From positions 868,001 through 932,000 of the forward strand of contig NZ_CP027786.1 of NCBI RefSeq assembly GCF_003795145.1: a DNA stretch of 64,000 bases, in the 5' to 3' direction. The stretch is from Tetragenococcus koreensis (GTDB taxonomy: Bacteria; Bacillota; Bacilli; Lactobacillales; Enterococcaceae). Made by a program: the position numbers and the translations under genes. Positions within the stretch are counted from its first letter, which is position 1. The number at the start of each line of letters is the position of its first letter. Below, one piece after another: positions 38,665 to 64,000 of the stretch. The notes under the pieces are model-generated. The model was not told the DNA's origin. It searched no databases and saw nothing but the letters and a program-made list of their open reading frames with translations.

Positions 38665-38686
38665 TGCCACTTACTCCCTTTAAAAA

Positions 38687-39115
38687 TCAAACGTTTTTCG
38701 AGGTGAAAATCAGAAATTTACTAAATACATAATTGGCAACCACGATTATGGTCTGAGTAATAAGTTTTGCCAAAAATTCACCCATTTTAAAGACATCAAT
38801 AAAGAGCAGCATACAGCCCATATCAATGCCAAAAGAAACAATCCGGTAGAAGAAAAATTTTCCTAATTCAACTAAAAATTGCTTAGTACCAGTGGATTTT
38901 GATTTGAACACCCATTTTTTATTGGTTGCAAAAGCAAACAACACGGAAAGTATCCACGAAAGCGTATTTGATACGACAAGGTTCCAGCCTAATAAATTTC
39001 TAGCTAGAAAAAAGACAACAAAGTTCACTACAGTTGTCATTCCGCCGAAAAATAGATAAGTAATTATTTCTCGCAATTTTTTATCTTCTTTTATTTTTCT
39101 TATTAATTGTTTCAA
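38687..39115 (-). CDS. GtrA family membrane protein, copy 2
   Basis: 142 residues, four transmembrane segments, the same family signature as copy 1 (TYLFFGGMTTVVNF, FATNKKWVF, VANYVFSKFLIF). The two copies are clearly related but well diverged. Probable partners are the GtrB-like glycosyltransferase at 41.3 kb and one of the GT-C-like proteins at 51-54 kb. That link is inference. Confidence 0.88.
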   Translation of the reverse strand: MKQLIRKIKEDKKLREIITYLFFGGMTTVVNFVVFFLARNLLGWNLVVSNTLSWILSVLFAFATNKKWVFKSKSTGTKQFLVELGKFFFYRIVSFGIDMGCMLLFIDVFKMGEFLAKLITQTIIVVANYVFSKFLIFTSKNV

Positions 39116-41298: not shown

Positions 41299-41338
41299 AA
41301 AAGAAAGATGATCCAACTTGGATCATCTTTCTTTTTCT
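41298..41338. terminator. Bidirectional terminator between dehydrogenase and GT2 genes
   Basis: AGAAAGATGATCC (41302-41314) pairs with GGATCATCTTTCT, flanked by A-rich and T-rich tracts on both sides. It overlaps the GT2 stop codon. Confidence 0.88.
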
Positions 41339-42264
41339 ATATCTTTTTCTGTTTCTTTTACAATATAAATCGGTCGTTTTTTGGTTTCCAGAAAGATTTT
41401 ACCGATATACTTTCCGATAATACCTAAAGATAGTAATTGTAATCCTCCCATAAATAGCACAATGGATGCTAATGACGGCCAGCCAGACGTTGGGTCCCCG
41501 AATAGTAACGCACGGATGACAATAAAAATTAATGCAATGATAGCTGCTATACAAGAAAGACCTCCGGTAAATGCGGCCAACGTTAAAGGAGCGTCAGAAA
41601 AATTTACAATGCCATCAATTGAGTACTTAAATAAACTCCAAAAAGACCATGAAGTTTTACCTGCAACGCGTTCACGATTCTCATAGGAAATATACTCTGT
41701 ATTAAAACCGACCCAACTAAATATTCCTTTGGAAAAGCGATTATATTCTGTCATAGATAGAATCGCATCCACCATCTGACGGGTCATTAGTCGAAAGTCA
41801 CGAGCCCCATCGATCATCTCCGTATCACCAAATTTATTAACCAACTTATAAAATAAGCGGGCAAAAAAACTACGAAGAACAGGTTCACCAACTCTGTCTT
41901 GCCGTCTAGTACCTACACAATCGATATCTGACGTCTCAAGACGTTCAATCATTTGTGGCAATAGCTCAGGCGGATCTTGTAAGTCAGCATCCATTACCGT
42001 AATTAAATCACCTTGAGTTGCTTGTAGACCTGCATATAATGCAGACTCTTTGCCAAAATTTTTTGAAAAAGAAATATAACGAACACGATCGGGCATTTTT
42101 CGATGTAATTCACGCAAACTTTGTAATGTATCATCTTTTGAGCCATCATTTACAAAAATATATTCAATCGAATGCGTGATCGACGAGGCAACTTTTTCAA
42201 CTTCCCTTACAAAATAAGGTAACGATTCTTGCTCGTTAAAACATGGAACAACGATGGACAGCAT
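41323..42264 (-). CDS. GtrB/CsbB-like family 2 glycosyltransferase
   Basis: A 313-residue GT-A fold enzyme that would make a polyprenyl-phosphate sugar. The N-terminus shows VVPCFNEQESLP, the metal-binding segment is MDADLQDPPELLP, and YNRFSKGIFSWVGF follows. Two C-terminal transmembrane helices (about 228-300) are typical of the YkoT/CsbB/GtrB group. With a GtrA flippase and a GT-C enzyme these proteins decorate teichoic acids or O-antigens in other bacteria. Two gtrA genes lie 2.2 kb away. Confidence 0.92.
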   Translation of the reverse strand: MLSIVVPCFNEQESLPYFVREVEKVASSITHSIEYIFVNDGSKDDTLQSLRELHRKMPDRVRYISFSKNFGKESALYAGLQATQGDLITVMDADLQDPPELLPQMIERLETSDIDCVGTRRQDRVGEPVLRSFFARLFYKLVNKFGDTEMIDGARDFRLMTRQMVDAILSMTEYNRFSKGIFSWVGFNTEYISYENRERVAGKTSWSFWSLFKYSIDGIVNFSDAPLTLAAFTGGLSCIAAIIALIFIVIRALLFGDPTSGWPSLASIVLFMGGLQLLSLGIIGKYIGKIFLETKKRPIYIVKETEKDIEKER

Positions 42265-42358: not shown

Positions 42359-43658
42359 CTAATTATCAGCTTTTTGTTCAACATCATAATCAGAACCTTG
42401 CATTAAATACTTGTCATAGTAATCGGACCGTTTCGTCATTTCTTGGTCAAATTTTTCATAACCCATTTGTTCCATTAAAGTCTTTTTATCAGAAAACAAA
42501 TTTACTCCCAAACCAAGCTCATCACCGGGAATTTGGACATCTAAAGCAGCTAAAGTGGAAGGGTACATATCTACAGCACTGAATAAGCGATTATTATCTT
42601 TAAATTCTGTTTTGCCTGTATTTAAAAAGACATTGTAAATACTCCGTTGATAGTTTGGATCGATATCTTCGAAAAAGTCCTTATCCATTGTCAAATGGTC
42701 TCCTACTAACACAACGGTCGTATTATCATAAAATGGCTGTGTTTTCATCCATTCAATAAATTCACTAACTTTTTGATCGGAATCGTGAATCACATTGCTA
42801 TATTGGTCACCAAAAAGATCCGGTGTTTTATCTGTAGCGTAACCATCTTCAAAATGTGTGTCTGTTGTCAACATGGTAAAGTTAAAAGGTTCTTCTCTAT
42901 CAGCAATGTCAGTCAATGAATCTTTGGCAAAATCAAAGAGCTTATCGTCTTCATATCCCCACCATTCATAATAATCTTCAGGTATTAGTCCTTCTTCTTT
43001 CGCCCAATGATAATCACGAACTTCATAATTGCCATGTTGCTGAAAATACGCTTTTCTACCAGCATATTCAGCTTGCGAGCCAATAAACAACATTTGATTA
43101 TAACCTTCATTTTCTAGTACTTCACCTAAGCTATATACACCAGGGAAAAAAGCACCTGGTTCTTCTTTACCATAAGCATTGACATCTAAAACCCCATTAC
43201 TCGCTCTTAAAGGAGCACCCGAAGTTTGTGAGACCATAGAACTTGCCGTTTGATTCGCTCCTGGAATTTGCATCATCCCACCTAATTGACCAGAATCATT
43301 GTGGGAAAATTGGATTCCCTCATGCAAAGCCATATCAGATAACTCTGGAATGAGGTTTTCCTCTTCAGTTCCTCCAATACTTTTGTCGGCATAACTACTT
43401 TCCATCGATTCAAGATAAATATAAACTAAATTTCTCTTCTTTTTAGGAAACTGTAAGTCAACAGTGGCCGGATTAACATAGGAATCATCATAAACCTTCG
43501 TATCTTCAAAATAATATGCTTTAACATCTGCATAACCGATTTCTCTAATACCTAAGGACAATCCTGAAGATAATGTTAACACTCCCAAGAAAAGGAAAAT
43601 AGGTGATAAAAATTTTTTCTTTTTAATTGGTTTATCCTTTTTTAAAGTAATTTGGTGA
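42359..43658 (-). pseudogene. 3' fragment of a phosphoglycerol transferase (LTA synthase/MdoB-like) gene
   Basis: Codes for the sulfatase-fold extracellular domain of an LtaS/MdoB-type enzyme, about 430 residues. The first metal and nucleophile region reads IYLESMESSY and then NQTASSMVSQTSGAPL, and later metal-binding motifs include TTDTHFEDG and VVLVGDHLTM. The membrane half has been separated by the insertion sequence at 43659-45179. The frame continues into the IS to an ATG at 43705, so a truncated, anchor-poor product could be made. Reading resumes in frame from the 5' fragment if the IS and one seven-base repeat are removed. The rebuilt protein has about 616 residues. Confidence 0.9.
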
Positions 43659-45179
43659 CTCAAGTTTCGCATACCCAAAATGATGATGTCCCTTTGATAG
43701 AACAACGCTGATAGTAAAATAATGGTTCGCTTGACTTTTGTTCAAAGGATACAAAAAGAACTCCTTTTGTTTTATAATGGATTTAACGACAAATCTAAAA
43801 ACAAGGAGTTCTTGCTCTTATGATACACTTAAAAAACATCAAAAATCAATTACCAAATGAAATGAACGCAATTTTTTCTGAACTGAACGTCCTGAAATTT
43901 TTACGACAAACCTCTATTTGTAAGCAAAAAGGCTATTCTCCCGCCATTATTTTTACTTTTCTTTTCAGTTTAGTGTTTAAGGGCAAGACCTTGAACCAAG
44001 TCCTCAGCGGACGTGAAGCAGATCAATATATGAAGAAAGATACCGTTTACCGTTTGATGAACGATCCGCACAATAATTGGCGTAGCTTTCTGCTTCGTTT
44101 TAGTGCTTCTGTGATCGAAAAGATCCATCGATTAACAGATCCAAGTACCCATCTACGTACGCTTGTTTTGGATGACTCAACGTTCTATCGAAATCGAAGT
44201 CAGAAAGTGCCTGGTTTGGCGCGCCTTTGGGATCATGCTTTACAAAAAGGTTATAAAGGCTATCGCATGCTAACTTTAGGCTTTTCTGATGGGTACTCTT
44301 TTATTCCTATTGATTTTGGATTGCTTTCAGGCAAAAACCAAGTCAATCAAAAACAAGCGGAAAGTGATCAAAGAACGAGTGGGGCAAAACGCTTCAAAGA
44401 AGCCCAACGATCTATGCCTGATGTGGCCATTGAGATGGTGCAAAGAGCCCTTGATCAAGGCGTTTACGCCAGTCATGTGTTAATGGATAAATGGTTTACC
44501 TCTCCTAAAATGATCGATCGTTTGCATGATTTAGGCATCCATACCCTAGGTATGGCAAAAAATGGCAAAACCCAATATTTTTATCAAAGACGTTTATATA
44601 AATTAAGCGAACTCTACCAAAAGTCAATAAAGGAATACTGTCAAGAAGCCATCATTTCCTCTATTATTGTTCAGCCAAGCAGCGGGAAGAACCCCGTCAA
44701 AATCGTTTTTGTCAAAAATCGGAATAACCAAAGTGCTTGGTTAGCCCTTATGACAGATGACCTGACTTTGTCATCCCAAGAAATCGTGAAGACGTACTCG
44801 GTTCGCTGGGACATAGAAACGTTCTTTAAAGTTTCCAAATCTCTCCTTCATTTGTCACAAGAAACCCAAACGCGCAATTATCAAGCCTTGATTTGTCATA
44901 CCACCATTGTGTTCACGCGCTACATCTTATTAAGTTGGCAACAACGCTGTGCCAATGACGAGCGGACCTTAGGCGGCTTATTTTATGAACTTGCTGACCA
45001 AATAAAAGAACTTGACTGGTCGGTGGCTTTATTAGAACTAATGGACATTTTGCAAGCAGTCAGTGAAAAAGCGAGTCATAAACTACAAGACTTCATTGAA
45101 AGTCAACTACAGCTCTGGATCGATACGCTGCCCAATTATATCAAGGCTTATCTACCGAATTTGGTGTGCGAAACTTGAG
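43659..45179 (+). mobile_element. Complete IS4-family insertion sequence
   Basis: A 1521-base element bounded by inverted repeats CTCAAGTTTCGCATAC and CTCAAGTTTCGCACAC (reverse complement of the right end), 15 of 16 matching. The target duplication TTGGTGA lies at 43652-43658 and 45180-45186. One full-length transposase reads on the plus strand, opposite to the interrupted gene. The stop codon lies inside the right repeat. Confidence 0.93.
43820..45178 (+). CDS. IS4-family transposase
   Basis: A 452-residue DDE transposase. The YREK signature of the IS4 family is exact: Tyr, Arg, Glu and Lys at spacing 2, 3 and 6 in YSVRWDIETFFKVSK near residue 330. The first catalytic Asp is in TLVLDDSTFYRN and the second in HVLMDKWFT. 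No frameshift or stop, so it is probably active. Confidence 0.92.
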   Translation: MIHLKNIKNQLPNEMNAIFSELNVLKFLRQTSICKQKGYSPAIIFTFLFSLVFKGKTLNQVLSGREADQYMKKDTVYRLMNDPHNNWRSFLLRFSASVIEKIHRLTDPSTHLRTLVLDDSTFYRNRSQKVPGLARLWDHALQKGYKGYRMLTLGFSDGYSFIPIDFGLLSGKNQVNQKQAESDQRTSGAKRFKEAQRSMPDVAIEMVQRALDQGVYASHVLMDKWFTSPKMIDRLHDLGIHTLGMAKNGKTQYFYQRRLYKLSELYQKSIKEYCQEAIISSIIVQPSSGKNPVKIVFVKNRNNQSAWLALMTDDLTLSSQEIVKTYSVRWDIETFFKVSKSLLHLSQETQTRNYQALICHTTIVFTRYILLSWQQRCANDERTLGGLFYELADQIKELDWSVALLELMDILQAVSEKASHKLQDFIESQLQLWIDTLPNYIKAYLPNLVCET

Positions 45180-45737
45180 TTGGTGAGTTGCAAAAAAATA
45201 AATAATCATTACGCCAATGTTTGTAAAACAAAAAGCTGAAATCAATGGCTTAGCAATAAATTCTCTGATTTTTAAAGGATCTGTCCCACGCAGAGGTTGA
45301 CTCATAATATAAACGATCTGATCAAAGCGAACATTTCCCATATCGTGCATAGTCCAATAGCTGCTAGTATAAGCAAGACTACCTGTAAAAATAAAGAGTA
45401 TTAAAAAAATAAATGTAACCCATTGTGGCTTATTGAAGTAAGTACTCCGTATAATATAACCTCTATTTGAGATAATTATATACAATTGCAATAGACCAAG
45501 TATAACAAGAGCCGCAATAATACACATTACCATATTTTGCGGATTATTAATTGGAGAATATAGCAATGCTGGGGGATTCAATAATGCGCGATTAAATGCT
45601 CGCCATAAAAGAAACGATAGAAGAATGTATTCTCCACTTAATAAAAGAATATTTCGAATAACTTTTTTATTGCTTTTCGTTAAGAGGCTATAAGATAGCA
45701 GGATTAAAAAAATTAAAATAAGTAACATAAACAACAT
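45180..45737 (-). pseudogene. 5' fragment of the same phosphoglycerol transferase gene
   Basis: The first 186 codons of the interrupted gene. They encode five hydrophobic segments (about 1-18, 30-46, 69-92, 107-127, 165-183), the membrane domain usual for LtaS/MdoB-type enzymes. The ORF runs 12 codons into the insertion sequence before stopping at 45141. The junction FFATHQ continues with ITLKKDK in the 3' fragment when the element is excised. The catalytic domain is lost, so this fragment alone is non-functional. Confidence 0.9.
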
Positions 45738-51308: not shown

Positions 51309-52808
51309 TTACTGTTGCTTTTCCAACATTTTATCTAGTGAAGAATCATGGTAGCCAGTAATATTAAATATCGTATCTAAAGGAACGCCATGGTACACTT
51401 TTTGTCGATCACCTTGGACACTTCCATTTGGCGGTGTTAGGTCATGACCGATAAATTCATAAGGCAAACGTTTAATCTCTATTTCTTTTTGGTCTGATCG
51501 GATTGCTTGTTTTAACTGAGCGATCCGTTGGTTTTCTTCATACTTGTTGACTCCATGTAGCGCAATACAAAATAGAGCTAAACAAAGCCCAAGGGTTAGG
51601 GCTAATTTTTTAGTTAAATGACTAGCTAAGTCTAATTTTGTATGAATCACTAATTCAAATAAGGCTAAAGTTAAAAACACATAAGAAGTTAAAATATTTC
51701 TTGGACCAAAAGGAGTCACAACTAAAAAAGGAGCTAACAACATCAAGGAAATGGTTAAATAATTAAAAAAATAGCGTTTGCTAACAAATGCAATAGATGA
51801 CTTGCTAACCACGACGATTAAAGTTACTAAGAAAATAACAATTAAAAGCAATTCAAATATTAAAATAAACAATGGTTGTTGCTGCCAAGATATATTTAAT
51901 AAGTAACGTAAAATAAAATAACTTGAAGGCAAAAAATACAATACTAATTTTCCTAAGCCTTTGTTTTCAGTTAATAAGTACATCACAATAGTAAATAAAA
52001 ATAAAAGCAAAGCGTTTTGTTTAACGTACAATTCAGACCACTCTGTTAACAGAGTAGTAAAAAAAGAATGCATATCAACATTTGAAAAACCCCGCATATT
52101 ATTTTCAATATGGTAAGCGCTATTTGAAAACATGATAAATGCGCCCATAATAGAACCTAGCAACCAACTAAAATAAGGAAAAATATGGTCTTTGAAAAAG
52201 ATAGCACTTACTAAGCCAATAGTTGCTATCAAAACACTAGCAATAGTCATATTTTCAATAAAAAATTGACACAAACAAGATAAGATAAAAATGCTGCTTA
52301 GTGAAAGGATACTATTTCCGTTCTTTTTAACTAACCAAACAATCCATAACAATAGGAAAGTGGATGTATTATAATTAGCAAATCCAGCTAACCATCCATA
52401 CGTCTGACTATAAAAACTTACGGGTAAGAGTAAAATTACTAAAAAACAGTAGATATATGGAATTTGGCATTTCATAATCTTTCTCATGAAAAAAACAATC
52501 CCCGTATTCACTGCTGAATAGATAAGTAAACGAGCAATCATACTCCGTGTGATAATCATTTCGATAATATTACCAAAATACCTACCATTGTATTCATCAA
52601 ATTTGTTTGCAAGACGAGCCTGCCCGATATCTCCGCCCCAGGCCCAATCGTCTCCAGAAAGAATTAATAATGCGGCAACAACCAAGTAAAAAATAAAAAC
52701 ACTAAGCAAAAACAAAAAATTCCTTTTCTTTGTTATTACTGACTTTTCTCGTTTTTCTTCCCCTCTAACCAACCTACTGTTCGCCCCAACAACGGCTTTA
52801 TTTTCCAT
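51309..52808 (-). CDS. Multipass membrane protein, DUF6056/GT-C-like
   Basis: A 499-residue protein with about eleven hydrophobic segments. The first loop after the first segment has SGDDWAWGGDIGQARLANKFDEYNGRYFGN, with the acidic pair expected in GT-C glycosyltransferases (DDW and following D). It resembles the DUF6056 group of surface-polymer loci; I cannot name the sugar or substrate. It sits 27 bases downstream of a second large membrane protein in the same direction, so both are probably one operon. Confidence 0.65.
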   Translation of the reverse strand: MENKAVVGANSRLVRGEEKREKSVITKKRNFLFLLSVFIFYLVVAALLILSGDDWAWGGDIGQARLANKFDEYNGRYFGNIIEMIITRSMIARLLIYSAVNTGIVFFMRKIMKCQIPYIYCFLVILLLPVSFYSQTYGWLAGFANYNTSTFLLLWIVWLVKKNGNSILSLSSIFILSCLCQFFIENMTIASVLIATIGLVSAIFFKDHIFPYFSWLLGSIMGAFIMFSNSAYHIENNMRGFSNVDMHSFFTTLLTEWSELYVKQNALLLFLFTIVMYLLTENKGLGKLVLYFLPSSYFILRYLLNISWQQQPLFILIFELLLIVIFLVTLIVVVSKSSIAFVSKRYFFNYLTISLMLLAPFLVVTPFGPRNILTSYVFLTLALFELVIHTKLDLASHLTKKLALTLGLCLALFCIALHGVNKYEENQRIAQLKQAIRSDQKEIEIKRLPYEFIGHDLTPPNGSVQGDRQKVYHGVPLDTIFNITGYHDSSLDKMLEKQQ

Positions 52809-52835
52809 TAATACGTTCTCCTTATAAGTTCAACC

Positions 52836-54629
52836 CTAGTAAAAAAATGAGGTATGTTTTCGTATCATTTTCACCAAAACAAAAGCCAACATTATTCCTA
52901 TTGTACCAAGTTTAATCACTAATAGTAATTGCGTACTTACCATCGGATCGTATCCAATAACTAGTTTATTTGTCCCTCTCTTAGATTGAACAACAGGGGC
53001 TCCTAAAGTCGTTTTTTGTATTTGTGTCGGATTATAGTGTTTTCCATTAAAATTAATCTGGCTTCTTTCATAAACAACAGCCGGAAGTACGACGTCTCCA
53101 TTATTACTACCTTCCCAGGTCAGTACAAGTCTATTTTCATCGTCCACTGTCTTTGTTCCATTAAATTTATTATTAACTACTTGCTCATCGTACATCTTAT
53201 AACCATCCTGCTCAATCAATTCTTCTTGCGTTGTGTTATTTAGTAATGGTAAATAATCGGGAGTAGGCTTATCGATGACTTTAAAAGCATCTTCATATCT
53301 TCCGCTAGTAAAACCTCCACGAATCTCATCAGGATCTTCTGTCATAGCCCATGGACCATTATTTCCTGCTGAAGTAGGGTTATCTGTTTCCCAAGCTTCA
53401 GCCTTTTGTAGCACTTCTAAGTTAACATTTGAGAGTGTCAAAAACGAAATCATGCACAAAAATGAATAAATAATTTTTTTCTTGCTTTTATCAAAGTTTT
53501 TAGTTATTTTTCCTAAGGATAATGCAAAACCAATAAGAAGAAAAACAAAGGCAATTAAAGCAAATCTCCTAGGAAATTGAATGACTTGAACAAAATTAGT
53601 GTAAAGCGAAATGTCTTCCCAAGGCAAAAAGTTAGTAGAAAGAACTAAGAAAAATGTGCCGACAATTGTTAGCAATTTTTCTAAAGTAGAATTGTTTTTC
53701 CAATTAAAGACTAAATAAAAAATTTGAAACAACATTATACAAGAAAAAATCATACCTAATTCTGAATAAGTATTGTCGCCCATAGTAAAACGCATAGTAT
53801 AGGATAAGACATCTTCAAAAAACTTAGGGTACACTAGCTCATTTGAAAGATAAACATCTATAAAACCGACTAGCGTATTAATATTCAATAAAATGGTAAG
53901 TAAAACAGCAATAAAAAAATTTTTTAGCATTTCTCCTTTGTGTTTAGCTCGCAAAAAACCAACAATATAAAATGGAATACTTGAAAGAATACCAAGAAGC
54001 AGTGTTAAATTATGCAAAAAACCGACGCTTGTTACAGCGAGTGTTAACTCTATTGGTTTTATTGGTCTTTCTGGATGTTTAATCACTCTTATAGCTGGTA
54101 TATAAATAAAAGGAATAAACGCAGCGCCCCAACTCGTCATATTTTGTGACAACGCATAATAAGAGACCATAGAACTACTCATATAAAGAAGAGAAATAAA
54201 AATCGAAAACTTATAATTAACCAACGCTTTTCTAGCCAGAGAGAACATTGCTACACCCGCGGTAAAAAAGCAAAGAAATGAGGACAATAACTGGTACCGA
54301 AACCAATTTTTGGTTATAAACATTAATAGCCCTTGTAAATATGCAAAATCAGGGCCATATAGAGCATTAACGATTCTACCTGATTGATTAAAGCCAAAGA
54401 GAGATTGAAAATAATTAAAATCTCCAGTTTTTATTTGCATATAAGCTTCATAGAAACGATTAAAATGAAACATCATATCGTTTCCAAGTATAATACTATG
54501 TTTATAAAGTTGAGGTGATATCATTAAAAAAGCTGCCAAGGCAAAAATAAATAATGCACTAAAGATTTGCTTTTTTGATGAATATTCTTTTTCTTTGTTT
54601 ACATCTTGATTTTCCCTTAAAACTTCCAC
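52836..54629 (-). CDS. Large multipass membrane protein, YfhO/GT-C-like
   Basis: A 597-residue protein with about thirteen hydrophobic segments in the first 410 residues and a soluble C-terminal domain before a final transmembrane segment (about 565-587). The first loop has LGNDMMFHFNRFYEAY, an Asp-containing motif placed like those of GT-C enzymes such as YfhO. I infer transfer of a lipid-linked sugar to a surface polymer on the outer face of the membrane, but the acceptor is unknown. A TTG three bases upstream is an alternative start. Confidence 0.6.
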   Translation of the reverse strand: MEVLRENQDVNKEKEYSSKKQIFSALFIFALAAFLMISPQLYKHSIILGNDMMFHFNRFYEAYMQIKTGDFNYFQSLFGFNQSGRIVNALYGPDFAYLQGLLMFITKNWFRYQLLSSFLCFFTAGVAMFSLARKALVNYKFSIFISLLYMSSSMVSYYALSQNMTSWGAAFIPFIYIPAIRVIKHPERPIKPIELTLAVTSVGFLHNLTLLLGILSSIPFYIVGFLRAKHKGEMLKNFFIAVLLTILLNINTLVGFIDVYLSNELVYPKFFEDVLSYTMRFTMGDNTYSELGMIFSCIMLFQIFYLVFNWKNNSTLEKLLTIVGTFFLVLSTNFLPWEDISLYTNFVQVIQFPRRFALIAFVFLLIGFALSLGKITKNFDKSKKKIIYSFLCMISFLTLSNVNLEVLQKAEAWETDNPTSAGNNGPWAMTEDPDEIRGGFTSGRYEDAFKVIDKPTPDYLPLLNNTTQEELIEQDGYKMYDEQVVNNKFNGTKTVDDENRLVLTWEGSNNGDVVLPAVVYERSQINFNGKHYNPTQIQKTTLGAPVVQSKRGTNKLVIGYDPMVSTQLLLVIKLGTIGIMLAFVLVKMIRKHTSFFY

Positions 54630-54726
54630 CAAAATTCTCCTTTATGAATTTAAAGCTTCTATAACTAAAAACCTTTAACATCATTGAGCAACAAATCATT
54701 CTCAAAATTTTCAAGAAGTCTTTAAA

Positions 54727-57700
54727 TTAATTTTTAAAAAACTTTTTATAAACTTTCTCAGCACGGTTAGGGCCGTCTAAAGGAACAAATCGGTTTTGAA
54801 AGGTTTTATATTTTTCGCCATAGACATCCCAATATTTTTCCTCCTTAGCAATTGTCCGACATAGATTTGAAGTGTTTTTTACAATCGGACCAGGGGCTTC
54901 TTTTTCTAGATCGAAGTAAAAACCGCGCATATCATCATACTCATCCAAATCATAACAATAAAAATAAACAGGCTTATTGGTGTTCATATAATCAAACATC
55001 ACAGAAGAATAATCTGTTACCAACATATCAGATGCTATCATTAGCTCTTGAATATCTGGGTATTTTGAAACATTAATAATATTGGGTCGAAATTCTTCTG
55101 GTATTTTCAATTTACTGGCAACGACTACATGTTCTCTAACTAATAAAACATAGTCATCTCCCAAGCGACGCTCAAAAATTCGAAAGTTAATTTTATTTTT
55201 CATAATAAACTTTTTTCCCTTTTTTTGATTGTCACGAAAAGTTGGCGCATAAAGGATAACCTTTTTATCTTCAGGAATACCTAGCTTGTGTCTAATATTT
55301 TCTTTTCGTTCTTTTAAATCGTCGGTATAGAAGATATCATTTCGTGGATAACCCAATTCTAATATCGGTCCATCATACAAAAAAGCAGAACGAAATGCTT
55401 CTGTAGCATATGGTGAAGGAGAAACCAATGCGCTCCATTGTTTTGTCGCATGCGTCACTCGAGCTAAATACCCCTCATCTCTTCCTGCAATTTGATCTTG
55501 ATCATGCTGCATTTTTTTCAGAGGCGTGCCGTGCCAAGTTTGCAAATAGTGTGTCTGCTTAGGCTTCGTCAAATACGTAGGGAAATTTTGGTTATTGACC
55601 CAATATTTACTGGTAGCTAGGTATTTATAATAACTAGGCGATAACCGCTTAATAATTTTAGTACTTGGATTTACTTTTAATGGTGCGTTATTGTTCATAA
55701 TCCAAATATAATCAAAGTCTTCACCATTTGCTACCATCTTTTCGTAAATCATGCGTGGACTATCTTCATATCTCTTACCCACTCCACTTTCAAATACGAC
55801 TTGTTTATCGTTAATTGTTCCAAAATGACTTAAAGATTTATAAAAAAGTTTCATCGTAGGAAAATAATATCTGGAACGTCTGAAACGAGAAAAGACCTTC
55901 AATGCTAATGGGTCATTCCTAAAGAATTTTTTTACTTTATTTTGTTCAGGAATATTCTGAATCGCTTCAAATATGCGATCGTTAGACTTACGATCACGAA
56001 ATTTGATGAATTTATCGGCTTTTTCGATATACTCATCTTCCATTTTAAAATTGTTTTCCCCTACTTTAAATAAATTTTCAATTACTTGATCTTCATCAAA
56101 CGCAATATCTCCTGGTAATTCATTATCCAAATCCAAGTGAGAAGGGTTTTTTCCCAAAAATCGATTACGATCAAATTGATAATAGACAACTGGCTTATGC
56201 AAGAAACTAAAGTCAAAAGCAACACTTGAATAATCAGTTAGCATAAACATACTTTCTTTAATTAAGTCTTGGACATCACGATCTCCTTGTTTGACAATAG
56301 TAACAGGTGCATTATCAAAATAATGTACGTAATCTTGCATATTAGGGTGAAGACAAAAAATTAATTCCATATCATATTTCTCGGAGAAATCTTTTAAACG
56401 CGGATCAAAAAGTAACTCTTCATAACGCTTAAAATAATTACTTTCTTCAAAAATCTGATTATTCGTGATCCAATCACGCCACGTAGGAATAATCAAAACC
56501 TGCCTTTTTAATGGAAGGTCGTTTTTAAATAACGACTCAAAACGCGCTAATCCAGTGGCGACTACTTCATCATCATGATATCCCATATCCACAATAGCAA
56601 TTTGGCGTTCTTTTTCAGAACTTGTAATAAACAAATCCGTATAAAATTCGTTGACCCATTTCGCATAGATTGGCGTAATATTTTTTGTCCCAAATACACC
56701 ATGTTGCAAAAAGATTTTTTTTGCTGAAATATTTTTAATATATTCTCTACTACGGATCGGATACAAAGAATCAGGATGGTGTGTGCCACAAATATAATCA
56801 GCTTGTATTACTTTTTCAAAATGTTCCTTAGAGCCAAAATCAATAACATTACCAAAAGGAGCAACATGTTTACGTTCTGGTGAATCTTTTTGAATCACAT
56901 AGTATGCATCGATCTCAGGATGAACGGTACGCAAATACTTGAAAAAATGATACCCATTATCTTGAGCTTTATAAGAACGTTCCCCCACAATCCACACAGC
57001 ATGATCTTTTGCTTGTTTTTTAACGCTTTTCCAGTTCTTCTTGTGTTGGCGAAAATAATCATAGGCTTCTTTTTCATACTGATTGTAAGTTAATGACAGA
57101 TTGACACCTTTTAAAGTAAAGTATGGCACTGCTGAAAGCCATTTACTAGTTTTTTCCGAGAAAATAGCCATTTCGCCTTTCATGAAATAGTTCGTGAGAA
57201 ATCTCGGATTACCAACACGAAATCTTACAGGGTGATCAGTCCCCTTTAATGTTAAAACAAAGAAAAAGTCGATACTTAACTCTTCAGTTTTTGCTAGATT
57301 TTCCAGGTATTCTTTTATTTCTATTATAGGTAAGCACCATTTAAAATGATGTCTACGTGCAAAAGAATTTTCTTTTTGATTCTTGTTTTGCATAATTGAA
57401 ACAGGGAAACTAATGGACTGGTCTCCGCCTCTTTCAACCATTTGAATTTCCCCATGATCAATATCAAAAAAGCGAGTGGTTAAGTTTCCTTGTAACATTA
57501 ACTTGGTTTCTGTAACCTTGATTTTAGAAATTGTCTTTCTTAAATAGTAATGTCCATTAGAAAGTTCTTTATTTACTAAAAGAGCCAAAGCACCTTTTTT
57601 GGTAATATAAGGAACAAAGAGTAAATTGTTCCTTTCATCTATCACATGTTCTAAGTTAGATAATGACCAATTTTTTTTATTTAGTTTGAGTATTTGAGTC

Positions 57701-58095
57701 ATACGCTTAACCATATTAGAATTCTCATTATATTTTAGATACTGTGCTACAATAGTAAACTTATAAGAATTTGCCGCAGAATTATTTTGTTCCTCATCAT
57801 TTGTATCAATTTCATTATTTTCATTATTTTCATTTTCTTCACTATTTACGTTCATTACATTTTCTTCATCTAATAGTGCCGAATCCTCTTTTTCATTCAA
57901 AAATTCAGCAAAATCATTTAAAGAACAGGTGAACTTATAAAGGAAATATCCATCATATTCTTCATAAGATAGAAGTTGAAAATAAAAATGAGTATCTCCC
58001 CGTTTTAGGGATACTGTGTATTCATAAGCTGTTTTTTTACTGGTAAATTCAATTATTAGGTTGCTTTCTTCTACTAGATATTTTAAGTTATTCAT
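54727..58095 (-). CDS. Double-headed CDP-glycerol glycerophosphotransferase family protein
   Basis: A 1122-residue protein with two glycerophosphotransferase-type (TagB/TagF-like) domains in one chain. Residues 1-345 form a beta-rich N-terminal region with an Asn/Glu tract at about 70-112. The first domain (about 365-735) shows FLQHGVFGTKN, CLHPNMQDYV and LTDYSSVAFDF; the second (about 755-1120) shows LQTWHGTPLKKM and VTDYSSVMFDY. The His and Asp of these motifs are catalytic in TagF. The second ATG is preferred over one six bases upstream because GGAAGGA touches the first. CDP-glycerol would come from TagD. No transmembrane segment. It could also transfer ribitol phosphate or other polyol phosphates. 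Confidence 0.85.
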   Translation of the reverse strand: MNNLKYLVEESNLIIEFTSKKTAYEYTVSLKRGDTHFYFQLLSYEEYDGYFLYKFTCSLNDFAEFLNEKEDSALLDEENVMNVNSEENENNENNEIDTNDEEQNNSAANSYKFTIVAQYLKYNENSNMVKRMTQILKLNKKNWSLSNLEHVIDERNNLLFVPYITKKGALALLVNKELSNGHYYLRKTISKIKVTETKLMLQGNLTTRFFDIDHGEIQMVERGGDQSISFPVSIMQNKNQKENSFARRHHFKWCLPIIEIKEYLENLAKTEELSIDFFFVLTLKGTDHPVRFRVGNPRFLTNYFMKGEMAIFSEKTSKWLSAVPYFTLKGVNLSLTYNQYEKEAYDYFRQHKKNWKSVKKQAKDHAVWIVGERSYKAQDNGYHFFKYLRTVHPEIDAYYVIQKDSPERKHVAPFGNVIDFGSKEHFEKVIQADYICGTHHPDSLYPIRSREYIKNISAKKIFLQHGVFGTKNITPIYAKWVNEFYTDLFITSSEKERQIAIVDMGYHDDEVVATGLARFESLFKNDLPLKRQVLIIPTWRDWITNNQIFEESNYFKRYEELLFDPRLKDFSEKYDMELIFCLHPNMQDYVHYFDNAPVTIVKQGDRDVQDLIKESMFMLTDYSSVAFDFSFLHKPVVYYQFDRNRFLGKNPSHLDLDNELPGDIAFDEDQVIENLFKVGENNFKMEDEYIEKADKFIKFRDRKSNDRIFEAIQNIPEQNKVKKFFRNDPLALKVFSRFRRSRYYFPTMKLFYKSLSHFGTINDKQVVFESGVGKRYEDSPRMIYEKMVANGEDFDYIWIMNNNAPLKVNPSTKIIKRLSPSYYKYLATSKYWVNNQNFPTYLTKPKQTHYLQTWHGTPLKKMQHDQDQIAGRDEGYLARVTHATKQWSALVSPSPYATEAFRSAFLYDGPILELGYPRNDIFYTDDLKERKENIRHKLGIPEDKKVILYAPTFRDNQKKGKKFIMKNKINFRIFERRLGDDYVLLVREHVVVASKLKIPEEFRPNIINVSKYPDIQELMIASDMLVTDYSSVMFDYMNTNKPVYFYCYDLDEYDDMRGFYFDLEKEAPGPIVKNTSNLCRTIAKEEKYWDVYGEKYKTFQNRFVPLDGPNRAEKVYKKFFKN
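57809..57840 (-). repeat. Short tandem repeat in the Asn/Glu tract
   Basis: Nine-base units of the type CATTATTTT occur about three and a half times with small changes. They encode the ENNENN run of the 1122-residue protein. The unit is a multiple of three, so copy-number change would not shift the frame. Confidence 0.6.
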
Positions 58096-58213
58096 TGTCA
58101 TTTCCTTCCAATACCGGTTGATTTATTTATATGAAAATAAGCTATATTTGCATATAATCGATTCAACTTAAAAAATAGCAAAATAATTTAACAAATTAAA
58201 AATTACTTCTATT

Positions 58214-59026
58214 TTAGACCAATACAACTAATGGCTCTAAGTTCATAACCTTTTTTAAAAAAGATTCAATTTCAAAATGATTAGTAAAAGTAGGTCTTTG
58301 TTGGATAGTGTCTTGCCATTTTGTTAAATTTTCTGGATTATTAAAAACGTAAAACGAGGAGTCTTTCATATAGAATTTATTCTTTTGTGTATCCTCCTCA
58401 GTAAAAAAATGTGAAGATTGTCTATCCCAAAAAATATTATCTTTTATTTTTTTCACTGGATTTCCCGCATTGGTACTATTTGTTTTTATTTTTTTAGCAA
58501 CAATTGAACCTAACCCTATAATTGAACCAGAACCAATATATGAACCTTTTAGGATGGAAGAATCTTGCCCAATCCAAACATGGTCGCCTATAATAACGTT
58601 TTTACTTTCATTGATCCGTCTCTGGTTTTCATCATACATCATATGAACATCAGAGTTACGTATCCAACATCCCGAAGAAAACATTACATCTTTTCCCACA
58701 ATTATATCCTTTGCCTCAGAGGCTATAGCCGTCAAAGGCTTATTAAAAGAACAACCCTCATTTAAAAATATGAGTGAATTATTATATAACGTAACCTTCA
58801 TTTCGATTTTATCATTTTTAGTTTTTCCTATATATAATACGGAATTATCTCCATGAAAAGTTACAGTAGTGTTTTTTAATTGTGCGTCTTTGTCTAGAAA
58901 AACGTAATTATTCTCTCCTTTAAAAATTATCTTAGAGTTACTAAATTGAATATTGTTAATTTCTTCAGTTACGATAGAATTATTTCTTAAATATTCTTTT
59001 TCTTTCAGTGCTGTTATTGTATCCAT
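58214..59026 (-). CDS. Hexapeptide-repeat acyltransferase
   Basis: A 270-residue left-handed beta-helix protein. Irregular hexapeptide repeats begin near residue 35, and the acetyl-CoA-binding type core VIIGDHVWIGQDSSILKG, IGSGSIIGLGSIVAKKI and NAGNPVKKIKD lies around residues 145-200, resembling WbbJ/CapG O-acetyltransferases. The ATG at 59024-59026 (MDTITALKE) follows GAGGT. Probable role is O-acetylation of the surface polymer. It stands between the double-headed transferase and the pyruvyl-transferase-like gene. Confidence 0.85.
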   Translation of the reverse strand: MDTITALKEKEYLRNNSIVTEEINNIQFSNSKIIFKGENNYVFLDKDAQLKNTTVTFHGDNSVLYIGKTKNDKIEMKVTLYNNSLIFLNEGCSFNKPLTAIASEAKDIIVGKDVMFSSGCWIRNSDVHMMYDENQRRINESKNVIIGDHVWIGQDSSILKGSYIGSGSIIGLGSIVAKKIKTNSTNAGNPVKKIKDNIFWDRQSSHFFTEEDTQKNKFYMKDSSFYVFNNPENLTKWQDTIQQRPTFTNHFEIESFLKKVMNLEPLVVLV

Positions 59027-59218
59027 CTCATACCTCACATATATTTCAACGAAATTAAAAATGATCATTTAGTTTTTGAAAGAGTCACTTTTATTATTTT
59101 TGTTTTTAATTTCCACCATAAGCCTTTTTTGAAATTTTTCTAGCAAAGTAATTACTTAATAATTATACCATCAAGCGTTAGGTTTGGATAATTTTTGCTA
59201 GATAAGAAAAAGCTTAAA

Positions 59219-59392
59219 TTAATCGTTCGGTGTAGTAAAACCATAGAGTAAAAACATCGTAAATAAACCAAAATGACTAAGCCAAATTTTAGCAGAGAAA
59301 TTCACGTTAGCTTCATTTCTGTGTAATTTTAAATAAATATTAACTGCGTTCGGAATTTTCTTAACAAAAATAACAAATTTTTTACAAAAAAC
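59219..59392 (-). pseudogene. Possible relic ORF of a membrane protein
   Basis: After a stop codon the minus strand stays open for 57 codons without an ATG or a ribosome binding site. The end reads WLSHFGLFTMFLLYGF followed by TTPND and a stop, which looks like a terminal transmembrane segment. It may be the remnant of a polymerase or transporter of this polymer locus. The 59027-59535 gap otherwise holds only the terminator at 59411-59463. Confidence 0.25.
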
Positions 59393-59410
59393 CTACTTAC
59401 AAACAGTAAA

Positions 59411-59463
59411 AATAAAAACGAACTATTTATACCTATCTTTGAAGATAGTGTATAAATAGTTCG
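59411..59463 (-). terminator. Long-stem terminator of the pyruvyl-transferase-like gene
   Basis: CGAACTATTTATAC (59419-59432) pairs exactly with 59450-59463, extended by a TATCTT/AAGATA pairing near the loop. On the minus strand it is followed by TTTTTATTTTTAC. Confidence 0.85.
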
Positions 59464-59535
59464 ACTTACAAATGATAAACTACTTTTTGCACAAATATCA
59501 TTCGTCAAAAAATAGCATATCATATTACTTTAAAC

Positions 59536-61056
59536 TCATTTTTGTCCGAAATTACGCAACGGCTTCGTTAATTTCCACGATTTTGAATTCTCCATAGTTT
59601 GAACTTTAAGAGTTAATTCTTCATTTTGTCTATTTTTTTCGTTCAGTTCCTCAGTCTTTTTCTCTAAATCATTCTTTAATTTAGATGCAGCTTCATTTTT
59701 TTCATTTAGTTCTTTGGACTTTTCATTCAAATCATTCTTCAACTTAGAAACAGCTTTAGTTTTCACTTTAAGTTTCTTACCGTTATTATTTTTTTCTTTT
59801 TCTTGTTTCGTTACGATGATATCGAAGTTTTTTTGTAATCTTTCAGTCATTTCTTCAGCGTCACAAGAAGTTATAGGAATAAGTGGTTCCTTCAAATTAA
59901 CTTGTTCAAGCTTTCCATCAAATGGTGTTTTCAAGCCTTTTGAATTATAATGATAAACATTTTCAATGCCATTCTTGTCTAAAAAGTTAATAAAGTTATC
60001 GTAATTTCTTTTTTGATTTTTTTCAACTGAATGAACATCTACTTTTCCCAATAACTCTTCTAATTTCATGTCTTCGCGTATTTCGTTAACAGGAACACGT
60101 GGGAAATTATGATACTCTGTTAGTTCCCTCATTCTTGCGTCAATTGGGATAGCTATGCTTGGCGTACCTGCAAGAATTGGTGCAACATTGCCGTGCAGTC
60201 TCGTTCCAATACTTAAATCAATTGTTCCCATGTGATCAATCCAGGAAGGAGCCGACAAGAAAAATTTCACTTGGTTATTCTTATATACAGCAGAGTTCAA
60301 ACTATTAGGATAGTTGCTAACCTTTGAGTTAATTGCCGCCCCTAAAGAAGGAGTACCAGAATAAGTCAATATCATCTCGTCTAAGTCTTGTGGCGTAAAT
60401 TCTAAATTCTTATACTGACCCGAAAGGTCATTTAAGAATTTTAACACTTTTTGATCTGCTGTAGGTGTCATATTTATACTTATTGCAGAATTATTATTCA
60501 ATTCGGTATCTCGAATTTTTATATTATCCCCAAAAGTATACATTGAAGGGCAACCAATTACCATATGATCTCTTCCTTCCTTAAAGCCTAAATAAGAAAG
60601 ATAGTCAGAAGTAATTTGTCCTCTTAAGCCCAAAATATTTGACTTTTCCAACACAGCACTGACAAAATGTTTCACGTCGTTATCAAAAGGTCTCTCTTGC
60701 TTAACGTTGGGTTCATAAGGAAAAGCCATTCCCATACCAACAACAAATACAGGAATTTTAAGTTTTTCTATTAAAGCTGTATATCTCTTAAGGGTGGGAA
60801 TAAAACTTGGACGAATCGCATTCGCTAATGGAATAACATATGAATCATAAGTTTCATTGATCATATCAGCATCAGCCGGGTCTGCCCGATAATAATCAGC
60901 AGTTAATTCTACATTTTCCGTAGTCAAATTTCTAAAAACGCTATAGGCGTACATTAAATTACCCACATTGTTTCCAATTGCATTTCTTTTAATCATTTCA
61001 TCTGCGCTGAAAGTATCTAACGGCGACATTCCAGCTCTTACAAGAACTTTTTTCAT
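59536..61056 (-). CDS. Polysaccharide pyruvyl transferase family protein with coiled-coil tail
   Basis: A 506-residue protein. The pyruvyl transferase domain (about 1-350) shows NNVGNLMYAYSVFRNL near residue 28, PVFVVGMGMAFPYEP and the signature IGTRLHGNVAPILAGTPSIAI near 283. After residue 410 comes a Lys/Glu/Asn coiled coil with two 21-residue repeats (residues 436-477), and the tail ends NSKSWKLTKPLRNFGQK, a motif also seen at the ends of Gram-positive wall glycosyltransferases. Pyruvate ketals on wall polymers add negative charge. Whether the donor is phosphoenolpyruvate here is inferred from the family. Confidence 0.82.
   Translation of the reverse strand: MKKVLVRAGMSPLDTFSADEMIKRNAIGNNVGNLMYAYSVFRNLTTENVELTADYYRADPADADMINETYDSYVIPLANAIRPSFIPTLKRYTALIEKLKIPVFVVGMGMAFPYEPNVKQERPFDNDVKHFVSAVLEKSNILGLRGQITSDYLSYLGFKEGRDHMVIGCPSMYTFGDNIKIRDTELNNNSAISINMTPTADQKVLKFLNDLSGQYKNLEFTPQDLDEMILTYSGTPSLGAAINSKVSNYPNSLNSAVYKNNQVKFFLSAPSWIDHMGTIDLSIGTRLHGNVAPILAGTPSIAIPIDARMRELTEYHNFPRVPVNEIREDMKLEELLGKVDVHSVEKNQKRNYDNFINFLDKNGIENVYHYNSKGLKTPFDGKLEQVNLKEPLIPITSCDAEEMTERLQKNFDIIVTKQEKEKNNNGKKLKVKTKAVSKLKNDLNEKSKELNEKNEAASKLKNDLEKKTEELNEKNRQNEELTLKVQTMENSKSWKLTKPLRNFGQK
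59626..59751 (-). repeat. Two 63-base repeats encoding the coiled coil
   Basis: The repeated unit encodes SKLKNDL-x3-x-ELNEKN. The two copies are adjacent, in frame and diverged at several third-codon positions. Confidence 0.75.
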
Positions 61057-61137
61057 AATTTAAATACTCCTATTTAATCTAAGTTTATAAACTAGCCTTC
61101 TTGTACAAAAAACTCGCAATAATTTTATTTATAATAA

Positions 61138-63633
61138 TCAATCGCGATAATTAATCATTTTAGTAAATTCTTCCATGGCATAATTGTCATACTTTTGTAT
61201 ATCAAAATCGTGGCTTGATTTCATTTCACCAGAAAGAAATTTTTTCATACCATTTAACAAACCATCAACACTATTTTCAACAATATCTCCGTACTGGCTG
61301 TTATCTCCCAATACTGATCTATTTCCCTCAATATTCGTTGCAATAACCGGTTTGTTCAAAGCAATTGCCTCTAATAATGTCATCGGTTGTCCTTCATGAT
61401 TGGATGACAACACAAAACAATCGCATTTATCCAATAATTCTATCGCTTTATTCGTCTGCCCAGTAAAAATGACGTTATCTTCTATACCTAAAGATATTGT
61501 TTCTGCCTTTAAGGTCTTTTCAAGTTCACCAGAGCCGACAAGGTACAATTGGTGAATTGGCCCTTCTTCTCTTAGTAATAAGGCAAATGCCTGCAGTAAT
61601 TTTTCTTGGTCTTTTTCAGGTGAAAGTCTACCAATATTAATGAAATTTTTCCCTTTAATTGTTGGCGCAGTGATGGCAGTAGCATTCACTCTACCATGAT
61701 CTCGCTGATCATTAATCAACAACATATTCTCATTAAATATTGCAGTTTTTTCTAATGAAGGCTCGCTACGATGCATAAATAAGGAGTCCGGGTCTAAAAC
61801 GTTAGGAATATAGACAAACTGATTCTCTTCAGTATACTCACTTAAGTTAGCCCTATTTAATTCTAGTGTTTTTTCACCCACAGCAGCAATAAAATCAAAA
61901 AATTTGTACAAAGAAAATATCCTGGTTAAATTTTTAGAATGAACTTTTTTGCCACCGACTACTTTTAGTTTTTCAGCTGCCATATCATTATGCTGGTAAA
62001 TAATTCGATTAGGAAACCCGGAAAAAGCCATCATAAACGTCCAAAAAGGAACATAACCACTGAAATCAATACCCACTTCTATATTGATATCGCCTAATAA
62101 TCTTTTCCATTCTTGTTGTACAACTTCTTTATAAAAGTCTACATTTTCCACTTTTGAATAATTCATGAAACGGTTATAACGAACCCATTCATAAAAAGTT
62201 AAATTCATTCCTCCACCACGATAAGCCATATGCACATTTGGTGAGAGTCGTTTAATATTATCTTCAAAAGTTTTATTTCCTCTACTTTTATCAATAATAA
62301 TTAAATTATATTTATCATAAGGAAAAAGTTTCGATAGATTAATTGCTGATGTTGTTACTCCATTGTTTAGAAACGCTCCCGCATACATTACAATATTGGA
62401 CTTTTTATTATTATAATCTTTTTCTACGACGCTTTGTTTAGCTAAAAATATATGGGCAACATAATCTTTAATAACTGAACCATTATCATAATGTGTAAAT
62501 TGTTTCTTGTATCTTTCAACCTGTACTTTATATCTATTCACAATTGTGTTACTTTCTGTGATATTTTTAGAAACATCCTCAGCGCTATAACAAATGCTGC
62601 CAGGTAAATTGTCTAAATCTAAATAAACACCACGTTTTTCTAAATACTCATCTTTATCATATAGATAAAAAATAATCGGTTTATCGGTAACTAGAAAATC
62701 AAAAAAGATACTGCTGTAATCTGTTACTAATATATCAATATAATGTAATAGTTCATCAGTGTCTACCCAATTAGGGATTAGTGTAATCCCTTCAAAATCC
62801 ATACCTTCTATATATTTATACACTAAAGGGTGGACCTTTACCAAAAATTCATATTCATCTATGTTAATATTCTCGACAATATCATTAATACTCTGAACAA
62901 TTTGAAAAACGATATCATCCACTTTGCCTACTTCACCCCGCCAAGTAGGGGCATAAAGAACAAGTTTTTTGTTTCCTTTTAATATGGAAAAGTTGCTTTC
63001 TAAAACTTGGCTTTCATAGAAAATATTATCAATCCTAGGATAACCATTTTCTAATACTTTTCCAGTATAAATATCATTTATATCATGAGAATAAACGATT
63101 TTTTCTGAAGTAAATTCATTTGGTGATAGTATGTAATCCGTTTGTAGAAAGTTTCTTTGCAGATTACTGTGTTGTGTAATCGAGCCTTCCATATCTTTGC
63201 CTAAAGTCTTTAAAGGGGTGCCATGCCAAGTATTCACATATACTTGTTCTTCTTTTTTTAAGAAATACGGCGGAAAGCTCACGCTATTAATTAAATATTT
63301 AGCAGTAACTAAATAATAGAAATACTTTTTAGTATGAGTTTTAACAAATTCAACGTTAGCAAACTTTTTATAATAGTTATAGTATCCATTATCTTCATAA
63401 TTGTTTAAAACCCAAATATGTTTCATATTCTTATATTCAGGATTGTTCACTAAATATTTAAATATTGCAAATGGATTATCTGTCATTCCTTTTCCATGAA
63501 AAGATTCGTATAAGATAATATTATTTTTGACATCGTATTTCTTGAAAGCTTTTTGATACTCAACCTGTCTAGAAAAATTAATGTTCCCCATTTTCTTTCT
63601 ATAATTTCTTATAACTTTTTTAACGTCTGGCAC
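61138..63633 (-). CDS. Fusion of glycerophosphotransferase-type domain and GT4 glycosyltransferase
   Basis: An 831-residue protein that joins two transferases. The first part (about 1-390) is TagF-like with YVNTWHGTPLKTLGKD, LVKVHPLVYKY and LVTDYSSIFFDF. The second (about 410-831) is a GT-B, family-4 glycosyltransferase with INIGRLSPEKDQEKLLQAF, LYLVGSGELEK and the EX7E-type segment SNHEGQPMTLLEAIALNKPVI. I choose the GTG at 63631-63633 because AGGAG is placed upstream of it; an ATG 48 bases earlier lacks one. Together the domains could add a sugar and a polyol phosphate to one growing chain. The donors are unknown. Confidence 0.85.
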   Translation of the reverse strand: MPDVKKVIRNYRKKMGNINFSRQVEYQKAFKKYDVKNNIILYESFHGKGMTDNPFAIFKYLVNNPEYKNMKHIWVLNNYEDNGYYNYYKKFANVEFVKTHTKKYFYYLVTAKYLINSVSFPPYFLKKEEQVYVNTWHGTPLKTLGKDMEGSITQHSNLQRNFLQTDYILSPNEFTSEKIVYSHDINDIYTGKVLENGYPRIDNIFYESQVLESNFSILKGNKKLVLYAPTWRGEVGKVDDIVFQIVQSINDIVENINIDEYEFLVKVHPLVYKYIEGMDFEGITLIPNWVDTDELLHYIDILVTDYSSIFFDFLVTDKPIIFYLYDKDEYLEKRGVYLDLDNLPGSICYSAEDVSKNITESNTIVNRYKVQVERYKKQFTHYDNGSVIKDYVAHIFLAKQSVVEKDYNNKKSNIVMYAGAFLNNGVTTSAINLSKLFPYDKYNLIIIDKSRGNKTFEDNIKRLSPNVHMAYRGGGMNLTFYEWVRYNRFMNYSKVENVDFYKEVVQQEWKRLLGDINIEVGIDFSGYVPFWTFMMAFSGFPNRIIYQHNDMAAEKLKVVGGKKVHSKNLTRIFSLYKFFDFIAAVGEKTLELNRANLSEYTEENQFVYIPNVLDPDSLFMHRSEPSLEKTAIFNENMLLINDQRDHGRVNATAITAPTIKGKNFINIGRLSPEKDQEKLLQAFALLLREEGPIHQLYLVGSGELEKTLKAETISLGIEDNVIFTGQTNKAIELLDKCDCFVLSSNHEGQPMTLLEAIALNKPVIATNIEGNRSVLGDNSQYGDIVENSVDGLLNGMKKFLSGEMKSSHDFDIQKYDNYAMEEFTKMINYRD

Positions 63634-63727
63634 TAAATTCACACTCCTACTAAAATTATGCGCTCTATTTAATTTTATCATAAATAACTTTCATGCACAG
63701 GTTATTCATAGAATTTTATTGTTCAAA

Positions 63728-63865
63728 TTAATAAAGAATAAGCAAACATAATTTCCAAATCTTTCGCAAGAAGCGCTTTTTAATTCCAGGAAAGCGATCG
63801 TTCCCCCATTCCACTAAGAAAAACTTTACACCAAAAACGAAAAACAGCCAGACAATAGGAACTAT
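63728..63865 (-). pseudogene. Possible relic ORF of a membrane protein
   Basis: A minus-strand frame of 45 codons directly after a stop codon, with no usable start. It reads IVPIVWLFFVFGVKFFLVEW, then an Arg/Lys-rich segment ending LLILY before the stop. The hydrophobic-then-basic pattern resembles the end of a multipass membrane protein. It may be a deletion remnant. The other bases of 63634-63967 show no feature I can support. Confidence 0.22.
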
Positions 63866-63967
63866 CTAACTGCTTGACTTGATCCAAAATTTTTGAACGC
63901 TACAGCAAAAGAACAAAATGATTTATCTTTTAAGTAAACAAGTTTTAAAAAATAACTTCATTAACAG

Positions 63968-64000
63968 TTATTCACGATAATCGAGCATCCTAGTAAATTT
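63968..64000 (-). CDS. C-terminal end of a second GT4-type protein, cut by the window edge
   Basis: The ten last codons read KFTRMLDYRE and then a TAA stop. The fusion protein at 61.1 kb ends EFTKMINYRD, so six of ten residues match, with an identical stop position. A paralogous glycosyltransferase almost certainly begins beyond the window on the same strand. Confidence 0.6.
   Translation of the reverse strand, partial: KFTRMLDYRE

Follow-up and report, generated by a model that had tools for sequence, protein, structure and literature searches.

Tetragenococcus is a salt-loving lactic acid bacterium, and the described systems closest to the surface polymer locus of T. koreensis considered here come from T. 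halophilus, Actinobacillus pleuropneumoniae and Enterococcus faecalis. A wall teichoic acid (WTA) locus with tagAB and tarF was described in silico in T. halophilus by Wakinaka et al. 2022 (PMC9045211). Ribitol WTA was shown to be a phage receptor in this species, and mutations in tarIJL led to resistance to phage phiWJ7 (PMC9045211). The same group reported in 2023 that phage sensitivity depends on a distinct cps locus as well (PMC10269466). In A. pleuropneumoniae serotype 3, Cps3D is the bifunctional polymerase of the poly(galactosyl-glycerol phosphate) capsule. It extends a glycerol-phosphate linker built by TarB/TarF-like enzymes and requires its TPR domain to extend poly(glycerol phosphate); this domain is present in most, not all, TagF-like capsule polymerases of its kind (PMC11666461). 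The EPA decoration of E. faecalis V583 comprises sugar-polyol-phosphate chains, one of which is proposed to begin from a TagA/TagB product (PMC7188991). The DNA analysed here (the window) is a stretch of 64,000 nucleotides, positions 868001 to 932000 of contig C1 (NZ_CP027786.1, assembly GCF_003795145.1), in a genome of 2.73 Mb and two contigs. Six genes at its right-hand end belong to the Tetragenococcus WTA locus, of which they form the distal part, and are not a locus of their own. Judged from sequence, this kind of locus is known; what is new is the Cps3D-like nature of two of its proteins.

The locus is a row of 13 genes on the minus strand, 24.5 kb long (C1 919309 to 943802), flanked by genes that we take, by eye, to be asnS and mltG-greA. 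The six genes inside the window encode a 499-amino-acid (aa) membrane protein (51309-52808), a 598-aa membrane protein (52836-54632), a 1124-aa protein (54727-58101) in which Pfam recognises Glyphos_transf, the glycerophosphotransferase domain, in two stretches as well as TarS_C1, a 284-aa hexapeptide O-acetyltransferase (58214-59068; Pfam Hexapep), a 506-aa protein of the polysaccharide pyruvyltransferase family (59536-61056; Pfam PS_pyruv_trans, 49.5 bits, cut-off 25.3) and an 847-aa protein with Glyphos_transf and GT4 domains (61138-63681), the proposed backbone polymerase. Next upstream of the 847-aa gene come an 834-aa tandem paralogue, of which the last 33 bases lie in the window (63968-64000; whole gene C1:931968-934472), then genes for TarF-like (392 aa), TagA-like (248 aa), TarB-like (384 aa), GT4 (494 aa) and GT2 plus TagF-like (757 aa) proteins and a 577-aa membrane protein, and finally asnS. 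A preliminary description of this DNA had recognised the six consecutive minus-strand open reading frames (ORFs) and their kinds, and its two multi-domain glycerophosphotransferases, O-acyltransferase and pyruvyl-transferase-like protein are all recognised by Pfam. It had given 63633 in place of 63681 as the right-hand coordinate of the 847-aa gene, and had overlooked the more interesting point, that this protein is Cps3D-like.

The 847- and 834-aa proteins are, by sequence, homologues of Cps3D. Against the Cps3D crystal structure (PDB 8QOY), the 847-aa protein gave a match at E 2.2e-128 split over two stretches, of which 42-635 is the best, and the 834-aa protein matched it at E 3e-128, with residues 29-830 aligned to chain residues 375-1139. 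The two proteins are 76-82% identical to each other in their enzyme parts and 44% in the linker, and both keep the WHGTP, R-x4-K and EX7E motifs. These motifs were equated with the cited Cps3D catalytic residues from the alignment of the 834-aa protein with 8QOY and from residue spacing. The comparison covered 21 proteins: the two own ones plus 19 relatives, each 700 aa or longer, taken from the 17 regions that were fetched first (see below). WHGTP was kept in 21/21, EX7E in 21/21 and R-x4-K in 19/21, the misses being G317_839 and G069_785. As in the Actinobacillus system, Glyphos_transf and GT4 stand in one chain with the three motifs, and the TarB/TarF-like neighbours correspond to CpsA/CpsC beside CpsD; unlike that system, the window proteins are without a TPR domain, the host is Gram-positive and a lipid-linked GlcNAc-ManNAc base is expected in place of poly(Kdo) (PMC11666461). 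Searches confined to open-access PubMed Central turned up no account that places Cps3D-like polymerases in the WTA locus of a Gram-positive organism, and the available portion of the T. halophilus account does not mention such genes (PMC9045211). The pair are good candidates for the enzymes that would build a sugar-containing WTA.

The remaining WTA pathway genes were located in the row, in the window and elsewhere in the genome. TarF-, TagA- and TarB-like genes start 2.6 kb past the right edge of the window. The TagA-like protein scored 172.1 bits against the WecB/TagA/CpsF model (cut-off 69); the TarB- and TarF-like proteins exceeded the cut-off for Glyphos_transf, and their best models were TarB (152.1 bits) and TarF (404.9 bits). 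On the minus strand of the window, an LCP-family ligase identified by family match (33000-34277), a TagG-like exporter membrane subunit (34413-35222; Pfam ABC2_membrane, named from its position next to TagH), a TagH-like exporter ATPase (35250-36308; 312.5 bits, just below the cut-off of 320) and the glycerol-3-phosphate cytidylyltransferase TagD (36469-36867; TIGR01518, 209.7 bits, cut-off 165.4) were found. Near TagD, on the same strand, lie two GtrA-family membrane protein genes identified by family match (38233-38670 and 38687-39115) and a GT2 gene whose product has C-terminal membrane segments and is the proposed maker of a lipid-linked sugar (41323-42264; family and hydropathy). The GtrA family comprises flippases of lipid-linked sugars. 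One MnaA-family gene lies outside the row, and of two PF00953 genes in the genome one carries the MraY signature; the other, being of this family and without that signature, was taken as TagO-like. The preliminary description was right to place TagGH, TagD and an LCP gene elsewhere in the window and to find no priming TagA there, as TagA begins 3.8 kb beyond the right edge; its proposal to extend rightwards for TagO/TagA and further genes showed the row to include TarF-, TagA- and TarB-like genes, with TagO- and MnaA-like genes elsewhere in the genome. It missed the two GtrA genes in stating that the window held no flippase, it did not list the GT2 gene near TagD, and its statement that there was no polymerase was misleading, because glycerophosphotransferases of this kind are polymerases.

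TarI was not found in the genome, where the sole IspD-family match sits in a GlmU-like protein. The best TarL score was 114.5 against a cut-off of 1000 when six glycerophosphotransferase proteins and TagA, a set without the 834-aa protein, were compared with NCBIfam. A ribitol WTA made by TarIJL was thus rejected for this genome. An EPA- or Cps-type locus was tentatively set aside, as Pfam recognises no Wzx flippase or Wzy polymerase in the 13 locus proteins, three of which are membrane proteins without a family above cut-off. The E. faecalis V583 system resembles the polymer predicted here in its sugar-polyol-phosphate chains; it differs in that LicD-type transferases and Wzx/Wzy are proposed there (PMC7188991) and none is recognised by Pfam among the 13 proteins here. 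In common with T. halophilus, tagA, tagB and tarF homologues stand together and tagGH stands next to an LCP gene; the T. halophilus WJ7 locus shares the pyruvyltransferase and differs in having tarIJL (PMC9045211).

The product of the locus is probably a glycerol WTA of type II, with sugar in the backbone. This reading is drawn from the TarF-, TagA- and TarB-like genes in the row together with the TagD, TagH-like, TagG-like, LCP, MnaA-family and TagO-like genes; from the Cps3D homology, the three kept motifs and the failure to find TarI; from the extension by Cps3D of a TarB/TarF-made linker and the presence of TagA near the fusions in 15 of 31 regions; and from the action of relatives of the 284-aa O-acetyltransferase on capsule polymers. 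Gene content, order, homology and kept motifs are what the sequence shows; the polymer itself, its sugar, the individual activities and their sequence are inferred from them, as follows. TagO- and TagA-like enzymes would make lipid-linked GlcNAc-ManNAc, to which TarB- and TarF-like enzymes would attach a short linker of glycerol phosphate. Backbone synthesis would then fall to the 847- and 834-aa enzymes, which would alternate glycerol phosphate, from the CDP-glycerol of TagD, with sugar from a nucleotide sugar. In the cytosol the 284-aa enzyme would O-acetylate the backbone and the 506-aa enzyme would probably pyruvylate it. The polymer would be exported by TagGH and joined to peptidoglycan by the LCP protein. 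Outside the cell, GtrA-flipped lipid-linked sugars may be attached by the GT-C-like proteins, and the TagF-like 757-aa and 1124-aa enzymes may produce a second, plain polyol-phosphate chain. Taken as a whole the WTA locus is ordinary, and through its variant core an open biochemical question becomes testable. The genus, one of food lactic acid bacteria, gains concrete polymerase candidates for which a model enzyme has been characterised and the prediction is clear.

Relatives of the fusions were sought in two samples. A match at E 1e-80 was obtained in 13/105 genomes of the family Enterococcaceae and a match at E 1e-60 in 20/398 genomes drawn from the class. Thirty-one regions of 16-20 kb were then fetched, comprising 20 from all 19 of the other class-sample genomes with a match and 11 from the family sample, where 10 of the 12 other genomes with a match were drawn on; one further class-sample match, in G492, was left out, and G005 and G009 were examined in the genus comparison instead. 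A TagA-like gene (at least 100 bits) was present in 15/31 regions, all 15 being among the 18 regions outside genus g31. This is far above chance, since a 20-kb stretch is less than 1% of such a genome. The three misses outside g31 were G236 and both G099 regions, one of the latter with TarF-, TagG- and TagD-like genes. Eight regions also contained asnS or mltG-greA and thus occupy the same chromosomal place as the locus here. At least two ORFs with a best match to the fusions of the window genome shared a region in G112, G317, G054, G050, G051, G053, G055, G058, G069 and G099b, the broken pair of G061 being excluded. In a tree of 32 rows, the own proteins fell in a short clade with G009, G061, G112, G122 and G054; seven g31 rows made up a second short clade, and a branch with support 91/96 had the 18 long rows on one side. 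Some fetched proteins, e.g. those of G353, G448, G492, G335, G378, G387, G220, G064 and G069, were left out of the tree.

In the long forms, whose lengths in the scanned set ran from 1013 to 1212 aa, additional sequence precedes the C-terminal half of the GT4 domain. Pfam matched a GW domain in this insert in 11/12 long forms, the miss being the 1013-aa protein of L096. These include L037:12265-15651, L064:7969-11556, L071:14526-17867 (barely above cut-off, 22.5 vs 21), L078:8789-12424, L080:8912-12451, L086:7472-11005, L091:7500-14309, L092:10486-14109, L093:7416-10787 and L099:8055-11324. None of six short forms (847, 834, 830, 841, 853 and 850 aa), the window's own proteins included, had a GW match in Pfam. 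GW domains are teichoic-acid-binding modules of surface proteins. Here they occur in enzymes expected to use cytosolic CDP-glycerol, so that a primer-holding role like that of TPR is a natural guess. Among the papers listed by searches of open-access PubMed Central, none was seen to describe a GW domain within such enzymes. It is quite possible, and is proposed tentatively, that the Cps3D-like fusions are the missing type II WTA backbone polymerases of part of the Bacilli, in three lineages, in one of which the GW insert in the glycosyltransferase half holds the primer in the cytosol as TPR does in Actinobacillus.

Nine Tetragenococcus genomes including this one were searched, and five were read at the locus: T. 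halophilus DSM 20339 (G001), T. halophilus Tet1 (G002), T. solitarius (G003), G004 and G009. G005 has the same contig coordinates as G001. The row from asnS to mltG was whole on a single contig in G001 and G009 only, and pieces were found in the three others. Relatives of the 598- and 1124-aa proteins were present in 5/5 (the 1124-aa gene being frame-broken in G001 and G004), of the 284-aa protein in 4/5 (not found in G009; frame-broken in G003), of the 499-aa protein in 3/5 (G003, G004, G009) and of the pyruvyltransferase in 3/5 (G001, G002, G003). From this pattern, the middle of the locus varies between species and the mltG end recurs. Cps3D-like genes were found in G001, in a long form of 1129 aa, and in G009, in a cut form. 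The G009 gene (L046:9713-12826), 86% identical to the 847-aa protein, ends at roughly residue 609; a transposase-like gene adjoins it on the opposite strand. Between the pyruvyltransferase and asnS, G002 and G003 carry a D-ribitol-5-phosphate cytidylyltransferase gene as well as TarL, which scored 1068.6 bits in G002 and 1093.9 bits in G003 against a cut-off of 1000. As the T. halophilus locus is published and these two genomes hold ribitol genes, the window version is of a known kind and is a variant without ribitol genes. By inference from the ribitol WTA receptor of T. halophilus, the differences seen here may bear on the phage sensitivity of soy-sauce starters.

Several observations weigh against a type II WTA built by the fusions. 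The 847-aa protein had a match at E 1e-80 in only 3/9 genomes of the genus, one of them (G009) cut. TagA was absent from 13/13 g31 regions and from 3/18 others, so the fusions are not always tied to WTA. The equivalog cut-offs for TarA, TarB and TarF were all unreached (206.5 vs 350, 152.1 vs 500 and 404.9 vs 550). A loose pattern for the second active-site histidine matched only 3/21 proteins, which may reflect the pattern. Pfam gave no TPR match in the 847- or 834-aa protein, and the 834-aa alignment begins after the TPR part of the chain, at residue 375. Finally, the TagF-like 757-aa enzyme in the row, which matched the S. epidermidis TagF entry 3l7i at E 1.4e-109, could alone make the chain. 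With this enzyme present and the fusions lacking the TPR domain, the locus might make an ordinary poly(glycerol phosphate) WTA to which the Cps3D-like enzymes add just branches or short sugar-glycerol phosphate blocks; we regard this as fairly unlikely, since the 834-aa protein resembles the backbone polymerase over its full length and keeps the motifs.

That the polymer is a loosely bound capsule borrowing the WTA export, and not a wall-linked teichoic acid, would fit the g31 regions without TagA and the fact that Cps3D and the polysialic acid O-acetyltransferases, the nearest enzymes to have been characterised, belong to capsules. This is improbable in our judgement, as TagA-, TarB- and TarF-like genes are interleaved in the row and a distinct cps-like cluster, which includes an EpsG-family polymerase, is present elsewhere in the genome. 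The preliminary description had proposed a possible undescribed locus for a teichoic-acid-like, acetylated, pyruvylated and sugar-containing polymer. An acylated polymer of this sort fits the gene families found; the claim of an undescribed locus fails, as tagAB/tarF of T. halophilus are in print (PMC9045211). The six genes do hold an unusual set of modifying enzymes, but the genes adjoining them are WTA genes and the equivalent T. halophilus locus is published, so that a separate undescribed surface polymer locus is very improbable. As a stand-alone locus it was rejected, because the right flank holds the TarF-, TagA- and TarB-like genes.

Of the modifying enzymes, the 284-aa protein has its closest relatives in NeuO/OatWY (PDB 3jqy, 2wlc), which O-acetylate polysialic acid, with a match over residues 42-235 at E 8.4e-31 (3jqy); this supports acetylation of a polymer. 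No solved relative of the 506-aa protein was found at E 0.001. A hydropathy scan gave 10 and 11 membrane segments in the 598- and 499-aa proteins and none in the four enzymes. The membrane nature claimed for these two proteins in the preliminary description thus holds, and their GT-C character is plausible from topology. The label is limited to topology because neither protein had a Pfam family above cut-off (DUF6056 matched the 499-aa protein below cut-off only) or a PDB sequence match, and because their structure models were too poor for a fold search (mean pLDDT 38.5 and 37.2).

The 598-aa protein belongs to a large family without a Pfam entry, found in 64/105 Enterococcaceae genomes and 15/17 genera, with two copies here at both ends of the row (window 52836-54632 and L009:11069-12802); the second copy, the 577-aa protein, is 30% identical to the first. 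The five named loci matched by the 598-aa protein were all from Tetragenococcus, with 72-80% identity in the best segment. The 1124-aa gene is frame-broken in its N-terminal part, with the catalytic part open, in L011:6475-9905, L014:586-4023 and L015:6496-9921. Phase variation of this gene was considered and dropped, as there was no telling repeat at these frame breaks. One stretch of the T. halophilus DSM 20339 genome carries TarF-, TagA- and TarB-like genes as two sets (L036:14248-17318 and L038:3437-6546; Pfam for the first set). The separate capsule-like cluster of T. koreensis, with an EpsG-family protein and a GT2, is at L029:198-4133 (C1:2367500-2372500).

No Rfam match was obtained in the window. 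Promoter scan counts were near those of shuffled sequence (65 vs mean 70.7; 74 vs 70.4), as were terminator scan counts (5 vs 5.1; 8 vs 5.6), and no operon claim is therefore based on these scans. Also in the window, a sulfatase-family gene, which we take to resemble lipoteichoic acid synthases, is interrupted (42359-45737). Matched to an intact 619-aa relative (L048), its 198-aa piece covers residues 17-199 and its 448-aa piece residues 186-615, and a transposase gene on the opposite strand (43820-45178) sits between the two pieces.

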